Assembly (NCBI RefSeq): GCF_003074135.1
Contig: NZ_PPDK01000001.1
Span: forward strand, 2,914,001-2,978,000
Source: Euzebya tangerina
GTDB lineage: Bacteria; Actinomycetota; Nitriliruptoria; Euzebyales; Euzebyaceae
Direction: 5' to 3'
DNA length: 64,000 nt
This document shows positions 52,616 through 60,097 of this stretch, in pieces; the stretch's first letter is position 1; each line of letters begins with the position of its first letter. The notes below the pieces were generated by a model. The model had not been told where the DNA came from and did not search any database. It was given only the letters and a program-made list of their open reading frames with translations. The position numbers and the translations under genes are program-made.

Positions 52616-53830
52616 GTGGCCGCACCCCAGAACTACCTGGCTGTCATCAAGGTGGTGGGCATCGGCGGTGGCGGTGTCAACGCCGTCAACCGGATGATCG
52701 AAGCTGGGCTCAAGGGCGTGGAGTTCATTGCGGTGAACACCGACGCCCAAGCCCTGCTCATGTCCGACGCCGACGTCAAGTTGGACGTCGGACGCGAGCT
52801 CACCCGCGGGCTCGGCGCCGGCTCGAACCCCGAGGTGGGGGAGAAGGCAGCAGAAGAGCACCGCGACGAGATCGAGGAGGTCCTCAAGGGCGCCGACATG
52901 GTCTTCGTGACCGCCGGGGAAGGGGGTGGGACCGGCACCGGAGGTGCGCCGATCGTGGCCGACATCGCCAAGGGTCTGGGTGCCCTCACCATCGGTGTGG
53001 TGACCCGGCCGTTCAGCTTCGAGGGCAAGCGGCGGGCGATGCAGGCCGAGCACGGCGTGGACCGTCTCGCGGCCGCCGTCGACACACTGATCGTCATCCC
53101 CAACGACCGTCTGCTCGAGGTCAGCGACACCGAGACCTCGATGCTGGAGGCCTTCCGACTTGCGGATGACGTCCTCCTCCACGGCGTCCAGGGCATCACC
53201 GACCTGATCACCACGCCGGGCCTGATCAACACCGACTTCGCCGACGTCTCGACCGTCATGCGTGACGCGGGCTCCGCGACGATGGGCGTCGGCAAGGCCC
53301 GTGGTGAGGGTCGTGCCCGTCAGGCGGCGGAGATGGCGATCTCCTCACCCCTCCTCGAAGCCTCGATGGACGGCGCCCGTGGTGTGCTGCTGACCATCGC
53401 TGGTGGTTCGGACCTGGGACTGCACGAGGTCAACCAGGCTGCAGCCGCCGTCCAGGATCACGCCGACCCCGAGGGCAACATCATCTTCGGGACCGTCATC
53501 GACGACTCGCTGGGTGACGAGGTCAAGGTCACCGTGATCGCGGCCGGCTTCAACGACAGCCCGACCGCGAAGCAGCAGCAGGCTCCCACGCAGATGTCCG
53601 GGCAGGCTGCCGCCAGCGTCAGTCACCTCCGCCCGGTGCGCGAGGCTCCCCGCCCCGACTTCGGTCGAACGGTCCGGGTCGAGTCGCCGCCACCGCTGCC
53701 GTCGATCCTGGAGGACGACGACGATGAGGACGACGTGTTCCGTGCGCCGGCACCGGCGGCGGAGCCGGCACGGCCAAGCCCGGAGCCGGCCGACGACGAC
53801 CTCGACATCCCGTCCTTCCTCCGGCGGTAG
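52616..53830 (+). CDS. ftsZ: cell division GTPase FtsZ
   Basis: A 404-residue tubulin homologue forming the Z ring. The GTP loop [12 protein letters not shown] lies near residue 102, NTDAQAL near 43 and the T7 loop NTDFADV near 204. A variable acidic/proline linker ends in the conserved C-terminal peptide [10 protein letters not shown], which binds SepF and other partners; ftsA is absent from the cluster, as in other actinobacteria. GTG 52616 has AGGAG about nine bases upstream. The gene has its own strong promoter in a 140-bp gap after ftsQ. Confidence 0.97.
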
Positions 53831-55428: not shown

Positions 55429-56001
55429 ATGGCCAATGACCTGTTGAAGAAGACACTGCACTTCCTCGGCATCGTCGAGCAGTACGACGACGACTACGGG
55501 GATCTGCCTCCGTCGGCCACAGCTCCGCAGACACCCGCTGCGGCTGCCTCACGACCGGAGCCGTCCAACGTCCGCCGGATCCCCACCGCGGATGACGGTG
55601 GCGTGCCGGCAGGCCCGGCAGCCACGCCGCCGCCCGCCCAGCCGTCCGGAACCGTCAACGTCATCGGCGCGACGGGCTCGACCGCGGCGGACACACCACG
55701 CGAGCCGGAGCCGTCCGGCCCGAGCATCGTCGATCACGTCCACGTGACCAGCCCCACGGCGTTCAACGACGTCGAGGAGGTTGGCGAGCAGTTCCGCCAC
55801 GGCGTGCCGGTGCTGATGAACCTCCAGGGCGCGAGCGAGGGGGTCGCCAAGCGGCTGCTCGACTTCGCCTCCGGCCTCATCTTCGGGCTTGACGGCGGCA
55901 TCGAACGTGCTGGTGACCGCGTGTTCCTGCTGATCCCCGCCGACACCGACGTGGCGGTCACGGAGATGGACCGGCTGCGGGAACGCGGCCTGGTGCAGTA
56001 G
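55429..56001 (+). CDS. sepF: cell division protein SepF
   Basis: A 190-residue Z-ring membrane anchor. The N-terminus MANDLLKKTLHFLGIVE is an amphipathic membrane-binding helix, residues 20-95 are a flexible Pro/Ala-rich linker, and the C-terminal domain (residues 98-190) is the SepF fold that binds the FtsZ C-terminal peptide, with VPVLMNLQGASEGVAKRLLDF and GLIFGLDGGIERAGDRVFLL. It replaces FtsA in actinobacteria. A promoter and ribosome binding site lie in the 75-bp gap upstream. Confidence 0.95.
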   Translation: MANDLLKKTLHFLGIVEQYDDDYGDLPPSATAPQTPAAAASRPEPSNVRRIPTADDGGVPAGPAATPPPAQPSGTVNVIGATGSTAADTPREPEPSGPSIVDHVHVTSPTAFNDVEEVGEQFRHGVPVLMNLQGASEGVAKRLLDFASGLIFGLDGGIERAGDRVFLLIPADTDVAVTEMDRLRERGLVQ

Positions 56002-56035: not shown

Positions 56036-56299
56036 GTGGAATTGATCTCGGTGATCGTGTGTCCGCTGCTCACGATCTTCCTGATCCTGTTGATCGTCCG
56101 CGTGATCTTCAGCTGGATCCCCCGGCCACCGGAGCCTCTCATGCCGGTCGAGAAGTTCTCCCGGACCACCACCGAGTGGGCCGTCGAGCCCCTCAGAAAG
56201 GTAATTCCTCCCGTCCGAATGGGAGCGGTTGCATTGGATTTGAGCATTATTGTGTTGTTCTTGGGGGTGAACATCCTGCAGGGCCTCATCTGCAGGTGA
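56036..56299 (+). CDS. YggT-family membrane protein
   Basis: An 87-residue protein with two membrane helices (residues 3-25 and 64-82) and the family motifs FSWIPRP and EPLRKVIPPVRMGAVALDLS between them. Homologues next to sepF are linked to division and cell shape, and in plants to chloroplast nucleoid positioning. GTG 56036 is preceded by GGGAG. The last third has markedly lower GC and uses codons such as ATT and TTG that are rare in its neighbours; this stretch may also contain regulatory sequence for divIVA. Confidence 0.9.
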   Translation: MELISVIVCPLLTIFLILLIVRVIFSWIPRPPEPLMPVEKFSRTTTEWAVEPLRKVIPPVRMGAVALDLSIIVLFLGVNILQGLICR

Positions 56300-56323: not shown

Positions 56324-58255
56324 ATGAGCCTGTCACCGGAGGATATCGAGCGACAGGAATTTGAGACCGAGTTCCGCGGCTACCACCGTGATGATGTGAA
56401 CTCGTTCCTCGATCGTGTCGTGGACACCATCGAAGAGCTCAAGCGCGACAACGAGGCACTGCAGCGACGCTTGGAAGATGCGGACCGGCACGCCCGGGAT
56501 GCCATAACACTCGCCGAGGACCGGGTTGCCGAGGCGCAGCAGCGAATGGCTGCCGCCGAAGCGCATGCATCGACGCGCATCTCACGGGTCGAGTCGGCGG
56601 CGGGTGAGGCCCTCGAAGCCGAGAAGCTGCTCAAGCGGACCCTGATCACAGCTCAGCGGACGGCCGACGCGACGGTGCAGGAGGCCAAGGCGGTCGCCGA
56701 GCGCGCCCTGGACGAGGCCCGCACGAAGGCCAGGGACATCGAGGCCACGGCCCGAGTCGAAGCCAGCGCCATCACCGACCCCGCGCGCGCGGACGCGCAG
56801 AAGTTGCGCACCGACGCACGCCGCGAGGCGACCGCGATGGTCGACAAGGCTCGGGAGGACGCGGAAGCAACCCGGAGCACGGCCGCCGCCACGGCCACCG
56901 AGACCGTCGACGCAGCCCGGCGCGAGGCAGAGCGACTGGTCCTGGCGGCGCGGGACGAGGCAGAGCGGACCGTCACGGCCGCGCAAGACGAAGCCGCGCG
57001 GACCATGGAGCAGGTCCGGCTGGACGCCGAGCGGTCCGCACGGGAGCAGCAGGACGAGCTGGACCAGCGTCGCCGGGCCGAGGAAGAGATCGCCGGCCAG
57101 ATCGTCGCCGCCGCACAGACCGAGGCGGCCGACCTCGTCGCGGCCGCGCGTGCGGAGGTCGACCAGATCCGTCAGACCGCCGAGGCCGAGGCGGCGGCCA
57201 TCGAGAACCACGCATCCGAGCAGGCTGCCGCGATGCTGGCCCGGGCGGGCGAAGAGGTGGACCACGAACGCCAGCTGGTCGCCCAGGAGATGACCAACCT
57301 CACCGAGAACGCGCGGGCGGAGGCGCAGCGCACCATCGATGACGCACGATCGGTCGCGGCACAGGCCGTCGAAGACGCCCGGCTTCAGGCGGAGTTCATG
57401 GTGGTCGACGCCGAGGAGCAGGTCCGGCGGGCCCGGGCCGAAGCCGACGACTACGTCACCACGGTCACGGTCGAGGCGGACCACTACGCGGCAGAGACCC
57501 GCTCGAACGCCGACTCCTATGCGGCCGAGATCACCGGCCCTGCCGACGCCTACGCCAGTGACACGCGCACGGGCGCAGACGAGTACGCCGATCGCGTCCG
57601 GACCGAAGCCGATGAGTATGCAACGGTGACCCGTGGCCAGGCTGATGACCACGCGGCGGCGCAGGTCATCGAGGCCGACGAGTACCGCCGGATCACCGAG
57701 TCGGCGGCCGACGACTACGCCGCCCGGGTGAGGGCCGAAGCGGAGACACACCGTGACGCGCTCGTCGCCGAAGTCGAGGACGAGACCACCCGGCTTCGCG
57801 TCGAGGCGCAGCAGATGTTGCAGGACGCCGCGCACGACGCCCGGCAACGGCTCGAGGTGGCGGACCAACACGCGACCGCGGCCGAGACACAGGCAACTGC
57901 GGCGCTCGACGAGGCGTTGGCGGCTGCCCGACAGCTGACCGAGCGGCGCGAGCGGTTCGCCACTGTGCTGCGGGATGCTCTCACTGAGCAGCTCTCCATC
58001 CTCAACGCGGCCGCCGCGACCTCCCACCCGCCAGCGGACCTGATGCAGTCGCTGGATTCGGCTGCGTCCATCCGGGCCGGCTTCAGCGGTCGGAACCTGT
58101 CCGTGGTCCCCAGTCCCGACGAGGCGGCCGGTTCGGGGACCGGCGATCGGGCTGCCGGCCCCGCATCGCGGGAGACGCCGGAAGACGACGACGAGCCTGC
58201 CGGTTCGCCGGCGAATGACATCGACCTGATCGAGCTCCGACACGGAGAGATGTAA
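56324..58255 (+). CDS. divIVA: DivIVA/Wag31-like polar scaffold, very long hendecad form
   Basis: A 643-residue coiled-coil protein. The N-terminal 60 residues are the conserved membrane-curvature-binding DivIVA domain (LSPEDIERQEFETEF, YHRDDVNSFLD). The rest, to about residue 555, is Ala/Glu/Arg coiled coil with an 11-residue period. It is clearest at 372-481, where ten units share an A-D-x-Y core, and at 163-240. The last 80 residues are acidic and disordered, ending DLIELRHGEM. Typical actinobacterial DivIVA has 260-400 residues. CAGGAG precedes ATG 56324. It should mark poles and septa and recruit wall synthesis. Confidence 0.9.
   Translation: MSLSPEDIERQEFETEFRGYHRDDVNSFLDRVVDTIEELKRDNEALQRRLEDADRHARDAITLAEDRVAEAQQRMAAAEAHASTRISRVESAAGEALEAEKLLKRTLITAQRTADATVQEAKAVAERALDEARTKARDIEATARVEASAITDPARADAQKLRTDARREATAMVDKAREDAEATRSTAAATATETVDAARREAERLVLAARDEAERTVTAAQDEAARTMEQVRLDAERSAREQQDELDQRRRAEEEIAGQIVAAAQTEAADLVAAARAEVDQIRQTAEAEAAAIENHASEQAAAMLARAGEEVDHERQLVAQEMTNLTENARAEAQRTIDDARSVAAQAVEDARLQAEFMVVDAEEQVRRARAEADDYVTTVTVEADHYAAETRSNADSYAAEITGPADAYASDTRTGADEYADRVRTEADEYATVTRGQADDHAAAQVIEADEYRRITESAADDYAARVRAEAETHRDALVAEVEDETTRLRVEAQQMLQDAAHDARQRLEVADQHATAAETQATAALDEALAAARQLTERRERFATVLRDALTEQLSILNAAAATSHPPADLMQSLDSAASIRAGFSGRNLSVVPSPDEAAGSGTGDRAAGPASRETPEDDDEPAGSPANDIDLIELRHGEM
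57437..57766 (+). repeat. ten 33-bp (11-residue) repeats in divIVA
   Basis: Ten consecutive 11-residue units at protein residues 372-481, for example VEADHYAAETR, TGADEYADRVR, TEADEYATVTR and SAADDYAARVR. Ala-Asp at positions 3-4 and an aromatic or His residue at position 6 are kept in most units; the first and last units are the most diverged. Confidence 0.85.
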
Positions 58256-58281: not shown

Positions 58282-58872
58282 ATGATCATCATCAGCTTGA
58301 TCTGCGTCGTGGCAGCCGCAATTGCGCTTGGGGTGGGCTACGTCACCGAGGAGACCTCAGTCCTCTACGCCTCGATCGCGGCGGCGTTGCTCGGTGCGCT
58401 CTTCCTCATGATCGCGTGGGTGCAGGGACGACGTCGAGGGAAGCCACTGCGCTCCGCCACGGTCGCTGGGGACGAGCCCGGCTCCGCCGCGACCTGGAAG
58501 GGTGCTGCCTGGTCGGAGGGCCAAGGTCAGGCTGACGAGGTCCTGCGTCGCGACGACACCGTACCCGCGAGCCAGGCATCCCCGACCAGCACCCGTCCGG
58601 CAGAGAGCCCCGCTCCCGCGGCCTCCGCCCCCGCTGCTCAGTCCGCTCAGGAGCAGACGATCGACGAGGCCGTCTTCAAGCCGCCGGCGGCGCCTGCGAA
58701 GCCGTCCGAGCGACCGTCGGCGCCGACGCCACCCCCTGCGCCAGCAGCCCCGCCGCCCGCGCCGTCCACGGGGTGGGCACCCCCCGCACCCCCTGCAGCG
58801 CCGCCCAAGGCCAAGCCCGCACCAGGGCCACAGGGCGCACCGCCGCCCCCGCCGCCGCCACCGGCGGCCTGA
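58282..58872 (+). CDS. membrane protein with Pro/Ala-rich cytoplasmic tail
   Basis: A 196-residue protein with two membrane helices (residues 2-20 and 27-47) joined by a short acidic loop, then RRRGK and a tail of about 140 residues that is almost entirely Pro, Ala, Ser, Lys and Gln and ends in a run of eight prolines. Two-helix membrane proteins with such tails are common in actinobacteria, but no family function is known. It lies 26 bases after divIVA and has its own -10 element. A link to polar growth is only suggested by position. Confidence 0.7.
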   Translation: MIIISLICVVAAAIALGVGYVTEETSVLYASIAAALLGALFLMIAWVQGRRRGKPLRSATVAGDEPGSAATWKGAAWSEGQGQADEVLRRDDTVPASQASPTSTRPAESPAPAASAPAAQSAQEQTIDEAVFKPPAAPAKPSERPSAPTPPPAPAAPPPAPSTGWAPPAPPAAPPKAKPAPGPQGAPPPPPPPPAA

Positions 58873-58878
58873 GCCGTC

Positions 58879-59421
58879 TCACGCCGCGGGGGTCTGGCCC
58901 TCTCGTCGGGCGGCGCGCCCCGCGCGTCGGGCCGCTCGCTCCATCGGGTGCCTGGTGTAGCCGTATCGAGCCAGGAGGTAGTAGTACAGCGGCCCCATGA
59001 GCGGCCCGAACCGTTCTGCCTGCCGGGTGTGCGCAAGCTCGTGGGCCAGCAGGTGATCAGACGGCGCTGTCGACCGGGTCAACACCACATGGCCCAGGGT
59101 GGTGGCGGCGTAGCCACCACGCTTCAGACCGAAGCCGACAGCGCCGCGAACGCCGGCGAAGAGCAGGACGCCGTGCTCGACGCGTGGCCGCACGCCGGAC
59201 AGCACGCCGAGGATCAGGCCACCGACGGTGGGGGGGAGGGCCCAGATGAGGGCCACGATCCGGCCCACCGGGGTCCGTGGTGGCTGGGGCACCCAACCCG
59301 CCAGGTCTCGGACCCAGCGGGGTTCACCGGCAGCCGACACCACATGGGCATCGGGCGAGGCACCGATCGTGCGTCGACGGGGGAGGAGCGGCGAACCACC
59401 GCCCGATGTGGAGCCAGGCAT
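58879..59421 (-). CDS. zincin-like membrane-associated protein
   Basis: A 180-residue protein of unknown family. Residues 58-92 form a hydrophobic stretch (IVALIWALPPTVGGLILGVLSG). Near residue 130 it has LLAHELAHTRQAERFGPL, an HExxH-type zinc motif (HELAH), followed by a Tyr-rich PLYYYLLARYGYTRHPMERAA. Such metalloprotease-like motifs occur in small actinobacterial proteins without assigned function; a third zinc ligand is not obvious. ATG 59421 was chosen because TACGCT ends seven bases upstream on this strand; the frame is open to 59481. It is divergent from lspA. Confidence 0.65.
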   Translation of the reverse strand: MPGSTSGGGSPLLPRRRTIGASPDAHVVSAAGEPRWVRDLAGWVPQPPRTPVGRIVALIWALPPTVGGLILGVLSGVRPRVEHGVLLFAGVRGAVGFGLKRGGYAATTLGHVVLTRSTAPSDHLLAHELAHTRQAERFGPLMGPLYYYLLARYGYTRHPMERAARRAGRAARREGQTPAA

Positions 59422-59428
59422 GGGCCGC

Positions 59429-59434
59429 AGCGTA
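59429..59434 (-). promoter_or_regulatory. -10 element (TACGCT) of the zincin-like gene
   Basis: On the minus strand TACGCT ends seven bases before ATG 59421; leaderless pattern. Confidence 0.45.
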
Positions 59435-59479
59435 CTGTCGGCTGCCGGTATCCGGCATGGCAGACTCGGTGGTTCCACC

Positions 59480-60097
59480 ATGGTTTCCGTCCCCCGAGAT
59501 GCCCCCAGCCGCAGCTTGATCTACGCCACGACGATCGTGGTGTCGATCGTGTGGGTCGTGCTCGACCAGGCGACAAAGCTGCTGGCGGTCCGGGCCTACA
59601 GCGATGGCGCGCCGGACGACCTCGGACCCGTCGTCCTGCGGCTGGTCTACAACACCGGGGCGGCGTTCTCGTTGCCGATCCGGCTGCCGTGGCTGTTCGT
59701 GACCGTCACCGTGTTGGTCGTCACACTGGTGGCCCGAGCACTGCCGGACACGCCGTCGGTGCGGCTGGCCGGCGCCTACGGCCTGGTGGTCGGTGGTGCG
59801 ATCGGCAACGCGCTCGACCGGATCTTTCGCGACGGTGCGGTCGTCGACATGATCGACCTCGACTTCCCGCCGCTGGAGAGCTTCCCGGTCTTCAACGTCG
59901 CCGACATCGGCATCACGGTGGGCGCCGGGTTGGTCCTGCTGTTCATGGTGTTGCTGGAGCGGCGAGAGGCGGCAATGCCTGATCCGGCGGTGCTGGCCGA
60001 AGGCGAGGAGGCCTTGGCTGAGTCCGACGGGGAAGCCGAGCGTGCGGCCGAGGATTCCGAGAGCAGCTCCACGCCGCTGCTGCCCTCCGACCAGTAG
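59480..60097 (+). CDS. lspA: lipoprotein signal peptidase (signal peptidase II)
   Basis: A 205-residue aspartyl protease with four membrane helices that cleaves signal peptides of prolipoproteins. The first helix has VWVVLDQATKLLAV, the first catalytic Asp is in GGAIGNALDRIFR near residue 114 and the second in FPVFNVADIGITVG near 140. The C-terminal 45 residues are an acidic tail rich in Glu and Ser, longer than in most LspA proteins. Predicted substrates in this window include the TPM-like lipoprotein. ATG 59480 begins the homology. The next gene starts five bases later. Confidence 0.93.
   Translation: MVSVPRDAPSRSLIYATTIVVSIVWVVLDQATKLLAVRAYSDGAPDDLGPVVLRLVYNTGAAFSLPIRLPWLFVTVTVLVVTLVARALPDTPSVRLAGAYGLVVGGAIGNALDRIFRDGAVVDMIDLDFPPLESFPVFNVADIGITVGAGLVLLFMVLLERREAAMPDPAVLAEGEEALAESDGEAERAAEDSESSSTPLLPSDQ

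Follow-up and report, generated by a model that had tools for sequence, protein, structure and literature searches.

A long hendecad rod in a dcw-cluster DivIVA of Euzebya tangerina

The window analysed here, a stretch of 64,000 nucleotides from a genome of the class Nitriliruptoria, carries a gene for a DivIVA-like protein whose rod-shaped middle is about sixfold longer than in ordinary DivIVA. This raises the question of whether such a giant is a DivIVA at all, in what manner its extra length was gained, and whether, as an earlier sequence-only reading had proposed, it unites the roles of DivIVA and of a Scy/FilP-like scaffold in one protein.

The gene, its neighbours and its conserved parts

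The gene divIVA (56324..58255, on the forward strand, as are all annotated features given below) has an AGGAG 9 nt upstream of its ATG, as read from the sequence, and its 643-aa translation matches the Pfam DivIVA family (PF05103) at E=6.9e-19 and 68.5 bits, the cut-off being 28. The locus shows the dcw cluster order ftsZ-pgeF-yggS-sepF-yggT-divIVA-orf-lspA, and the part from ftsZ to divIVA is common to the window and its relatives, where the orthologues stand in the same gene order. Pfam identified ftsZ (52616..53830), sepF (55429..56001; SepF, 3.8e-19) and, downstream of divIVA, lspA (59228..60097). The small membrane protein of 87 aa encoded 24 bp before divIVA (56036..56299) is called yggT-like from its position and sequence rather than from a domain search, and relatives have the same neighbour. 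The gene after divIVA (58282-58872) codes for a 196-aa protein with a hydrophobic N-terminal region and a Pro/Ala-rich tail, for which there was no match in Pfam and to which congeners have a similar neighbour. No plasmid match was found.

The N-terminal DivIVA domain occupies residues 1-56 (56324..56491; Pfam 3-56), and an alignment of residues 1-55 to the N-domain structure of B. subtilis DivIVA (PDB 2WUJ) needs no gaps and includes F17 and R18, which correspond to the Phe17/Arg18 by which DivIVA of the B. subtilis kind binds membrane. The signature GYHRDDVN keeps the G, Y and V of GYDxxEVD and is otherwise degenerate (D21H, E24D, D26N), the congeners reading GYDRE(E/D)VD. Only this N-terminus is DivIVA-domain-like, the other Pfam stretches fitting only the coiled-coil part of the profile, so that PolyDIV, with its 2-8 DivIVA-like domains per chain, was ruled out. 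There follow a heptad-like linker or first coiled coil (residues 57-101, 56492..56626; period ~3.55 over 22-104, helical in the predicted model) and, located by alignment, the conserved start motif LLKRTLITAQRTADATVQEAKA (residues 102-123, 56627..56692), which occurs in DivIVAs of Bacillota and Actinomycetota.

At the far end of the rod lies the conserved end motif (ARQLTERRERFATVLRDALTEQLSILNAA..., residues 535-567, 57926..58024), which in the alignment falls on the C-terminal helix that ends the second coiled coil of short DivIVAs and which was detected with a score gap of 25 to the next site. The alignment, with its conserved ends and a length gap in the middle, implies growth between two conserved helical motifs. 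Since both motifs proper to DivIVA are retained, as is the dcw position, the ORF is, by its sequence, a genuine dcw-cluster DivIVA with a stretched middle. The remaining residues, 568-643 (58025..58252), form an acidic tail predicted by AlphaFold2 to be mostly disordered. After a variable acidic part, its last residues (58217-58252) are conserved within the genus (IDLIELRHGEM / IDLVHLLxAPHRD / PDLVHVMHRES), and this terminal segment is a candidate partner-binding peptide.

The hendecad rod and the steps of its length

Among 103 DivIVAs in which both motifs were present, the window protein is the longest, and the median of 257 aa bears out the earlier estimate that it has roughly twice the usual size. 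It is no lone oddity: orthologues within the class range from 175 to 643 aa, with 500, 527 and 496 aa in the congeners and 576 (L060) and 550 aa (L061) in two other genera. The 576-aa protein (3079-4806 of L060, a genome of the same order) has frequent prolines in its hendecads, often in alternate units, and a super-repeat of 22 residues (RLLxEAxxEAE / PLVPxARxEAE), which is unexpected in a continuous helix.

The rod of the window protein (residues 114-487, 56663..57784) comprises ~34 hendecads in one register, with Ala at positions a and h and T/I/L/V at d, the weakest units being those at residues 235-256. Over residues 105-500 the hydrophobic periodicity peaks at 3.665, with a normalised power of 31 at 11/3 vs 0.3 at 3.5, and over residues 100-380 the 11/3 signal stands at 26 times the mean of shuffled sequences, a level reached by 0 of 300 shuffles, and the signal at 3.5 stands at 0.2 times that mean. 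At lags of 11, 22 and 33 the sequence is identical to itself about twice as often as expected, or more often still. Residues 22-104 and 488-564 are heptad or 3.6-like and non-hendecad. The 11-residue period earlier read from the sequence in the extra length therefore holds, and the coiled-coil periodicity analysis called for at that time finds hendecads, not heptads, dominating the rod, with the heptad power at background. Within the rod, the A-D-x-Y block described earlier as ten clear units at residues 372-481 is real and was slightly overstated: ten hendecads at residues 374-476 (57443..57751), spaced exactly 11, have Tyr at position k in eight cases, all exact A-D-x-Y, and His in two, A-D-D-H and A-E-T-H.

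AlphaFold2 predicts, with modest confidence, what is almost one helix over residues 22-564 (helices 22-95, 97-439 and 446-564), in a model of the monomer only whose mean pLDDT is 68.5 and falls below 50 at residues 282-305; this agrees with the long coil that the extra length had been taken for. P153, P406 and the two weak units at 235-256 may kink the rod. At ~0.15 nm per residue, the distance would be ~67 nm from motif to motif and ~80 nm for the whole helix. Tetramer models of DivIVA have been published (PMC7340271, PMC12585849), that of B. subtilis being 30 nm long (PMC7340271).

In order to compare rods across the family, we measured D, counted in residues from the arginine of LLKRTL in the start motif to the glutamine of EQL in the end motif. 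The sample comprised 95 unambiguous DivIVAs from Bacillota, Actinomycetota and others, with motifs taken from retrieved sequences only and with outgroup proteins that were mostly Bacillota among the matches listed in the contig scan. D equals 70+11n in 94 of the 95, and 13 of the 14 distinct values lie on this lattice (70, 81, 92, 103, 114, 125, 136, 147, 158, 213, 323, 378 and 389), for which p is ~4e-12 at modulus 11, a nominal figure given that the D values have a common ancestry. Of the moduli from 5 to 18, 11 alone was enriched. The result is stable over a wide range of thresholds, the loosest admitting single cases of D=74 and D=31; weak end-motif matches, such as D=74 in Coriobacteriia-like sequences, and those of L072, L073 and L074 were set aside as ambiguous. 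As a negative control, the linker that joins GY to the start motif in the same proteins took 23 distinct lengths and preferred no modulus. The sole protein off the lattice is the window DivIVA itself (451 = 70 + 34x11 + 7), so the motif detection was not blind to exceptions. The extra heptad responsible for this departure from 11n is most probably in the transition at residues 488-527 (57785..57904), where an ungapped alignment of both ends with the closest congener places it.

These distances between aligned motifs show that DivIVA rods gain length almost exclusively by whole units of 11 residues. At a period of 11/3, 11 residues make exactly 3 turns and 7 make 1.91, so that an insertion of 11 stays in phase and one of 7 nearly does. 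Length variation and hendecad expansion in the DivIVA superfamily have already been described (PMC9858780); our search of one open-access library found no prior statement of the step rule.

Accounts of the long rod

What the sequence comparisons demonstrate is one DivIVA N-domain, both end motifs, an 11/3 periodicity that is nearly unbroken and has Ala in positions a and h, the gene order and a family-wide quantised length. We consider it probable that the protein is a dcw DivIVA whose second coiled coil was lengthened, between conserved motifs, by ~34 hendecads and one heptad, and which serves as a membrane-anchored spacer rod. By analogy with known DivIVAs, its N-domain would dimerise and be seated through F17/R18 on curved membrane at the poles or the septum, the helices would form a parallel, nearly straight, Ala-cored dimeric rod of ~67-80 nm, and the end-motif helix, held apart from the membrane heads by this rod, would pair the dimers into antiparallel tetramers, while the conserved last peptide of the disordered tail might recruit partners. 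Longer rods would then change the spacing or reach of the scaffold, and insertions would be kept only where the hydrophobic stripe stayed in phase.

Whether the size itself has a function is where the most serious rival stands. A neutral ratchet, by which hendecads are freely gained and lost, selection acts on the phase between the two end motifs alone and the giant size has no role of its own, is an appreciable possibility even if we do not favour it, and the quantisation fits neutral length drift under such a phase constraint as well. Rod length spreads twofold within one genus (D 213, 323 and 451), the Tyr block is absent from the congeners and the other long-rod DivIVA sequences compared, and on a tree of FtsZ, PgeF, YggS and SepF the rod must have switched three times between the short and the long state (long being D of at least 150), in a short tree search that left some branches weakly supported. 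However, the helical and Ala-core pattern is intact over >340 residues. The codons of identical rod residues show no similarity beyond that expected from codon usage, which argues against recent DNA duplication and led us to reject a recent tandem duplication as the source of the whole rod; the sole trace of duplication is one 33-bp, 2.5-copy stretch at 56923-57004. Because the full patterning persists without such recent duplication, long rods have been maintained.

The merger put forward by the sequence-only reading, in which DivIVA and a Scy/FilP-like tip scaffold became one protein, now looks unlikely. FilP and Scy do combine a DivIVA-like domain with hendecad-rich rods, and DivIVA, GpsB, FilP and Scy belong to one superfamily in which the rods of FilP and Scy underwent hendecad expansion (PMC9858780, Martinez-Goikoetxea and Lupas). 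The search for separate Scy and FilP genes that had been suggested found neither homologue in the genome: the Scy profile (NF041483) had no match, and Streptomyces FilP matched only inside the DivIVA rod. However, profile and homologue searches found Scy and clear FilP equally absent from relatives with DivIVAs of 175-230 aa, so that their absence here is no argument for a merger and the proposal is not supported. Scy passes its cut-off in 7 of the 246 genomes of the phylum, all from one genus, and the sub-threshold matches in congeners land on their own DivIVA. The rods, too, are built differently: Scy has a period of 3.640, or 51/14 (power 121, vs 4 at 11/3), from a 51-residue repeat reportedly due to Walshaw et al. 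in 2010, whereas the window rod has a power of 8.5 at 51/14 vs 31 at 11/3 and a lag-51 identity at background, which makes the earlier likening to Scy a loose one. A second DivIVA-domain protein is present in the genome (L002), though it is neither Scy nor FilP.

This second protein has 210 aa and is encoded two genes after mreB (L002:1492-2124); mreB is also nearby in L052, L065 and L069. Second DivIVA-domain proteins also occur in relatives (L051, L052, L055, L057, L059, L068, L069, L076 and L080), reaching 460-670 aa in several, and the C-terminal domain of the long ones matches phage portal/head-morphogenesis families (phrog_2662 in L059, E=1.3e-9), so that they appear as odd chromosomal fusions of DivIVA with a phage-head-like part. 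We considered the 460-670 aa proteins of the short-DivIVA relatives as a complementary FilP-like set, which, if real, would have backed the merger, and rejected it on account of their weak hendecads and different C-terminal domain.

It is highly improbable that a FilP-type paralogue has come to occupy the place of divIVA in the dcw cluster, as the long hendecad rod and a weak match to residues 110-291 of Streptomyces FilP (E 2.7e-4) might suggest, for the match is confined to the rod and leaves the N-domain without one, the protein still has the N-helix of DivIVA and both of its motifs, its gene keeps the dcw order, and the closest congeners are orthologous.

Returning to the lengthened dcw DivIVA, we tentatively propose that its rod is an evolvable spacer, changing in whole-hendecad and rarely heptad steps, and that giants arising repeatedly in Nitriliruptoria might set the reach or mesh of a polar or septal scaffold without Scy or FilP. 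The natural rods, from 70 to 451 residues in whole-hendecad steps between constant ends, offer ready length variants, a series that bears on the role of DivIVA rod length in curvature sensing and polar scaffolding. The wider result, beyond the longest variant of the sample, is the 11-residue step rule.

Comparison with known systems

Streptomyces Scy (NF041483) resembles the window protein in its long, Ala-rich helical rod and its membership of the DivIVA-like superfamily (PMC9858780); it differs in its 51/14 period, its ~1300 aa and its restriction to one genus, and, unlike the window protein, it has no N-terminal helix before GYD (PMC9858780). FilP likewise shares a DivIVA-like motif and a hendecad-expanded rod (PMC9858780), but it is a separate paralogue, with a peak period of 3.625 in the Streptomyces copy and a sequence match in the rod only. 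Closer by far are the long-rod DivIVAs of the same class (D=323 in L042, 213 in L043/L044, 389 in L060 and 378 in L061), which have the same architecture and hendecad expansion and which, unlike the window protein, all lie on the 70+11n lattice. With the DivIVA/Wag31 proteins of Actinomycetota and Bacillota (PF05103), the window protein has in common the N-domain, the start and end motifs and the dcw neighbours, and the ordinary members already possess a short hendecad stretch like its rod; it departs from most of them in having 451 residues between the motifs vs 70-158, together with an extra heptad, a Tyr-bearing block and a degenerate GYD signature.
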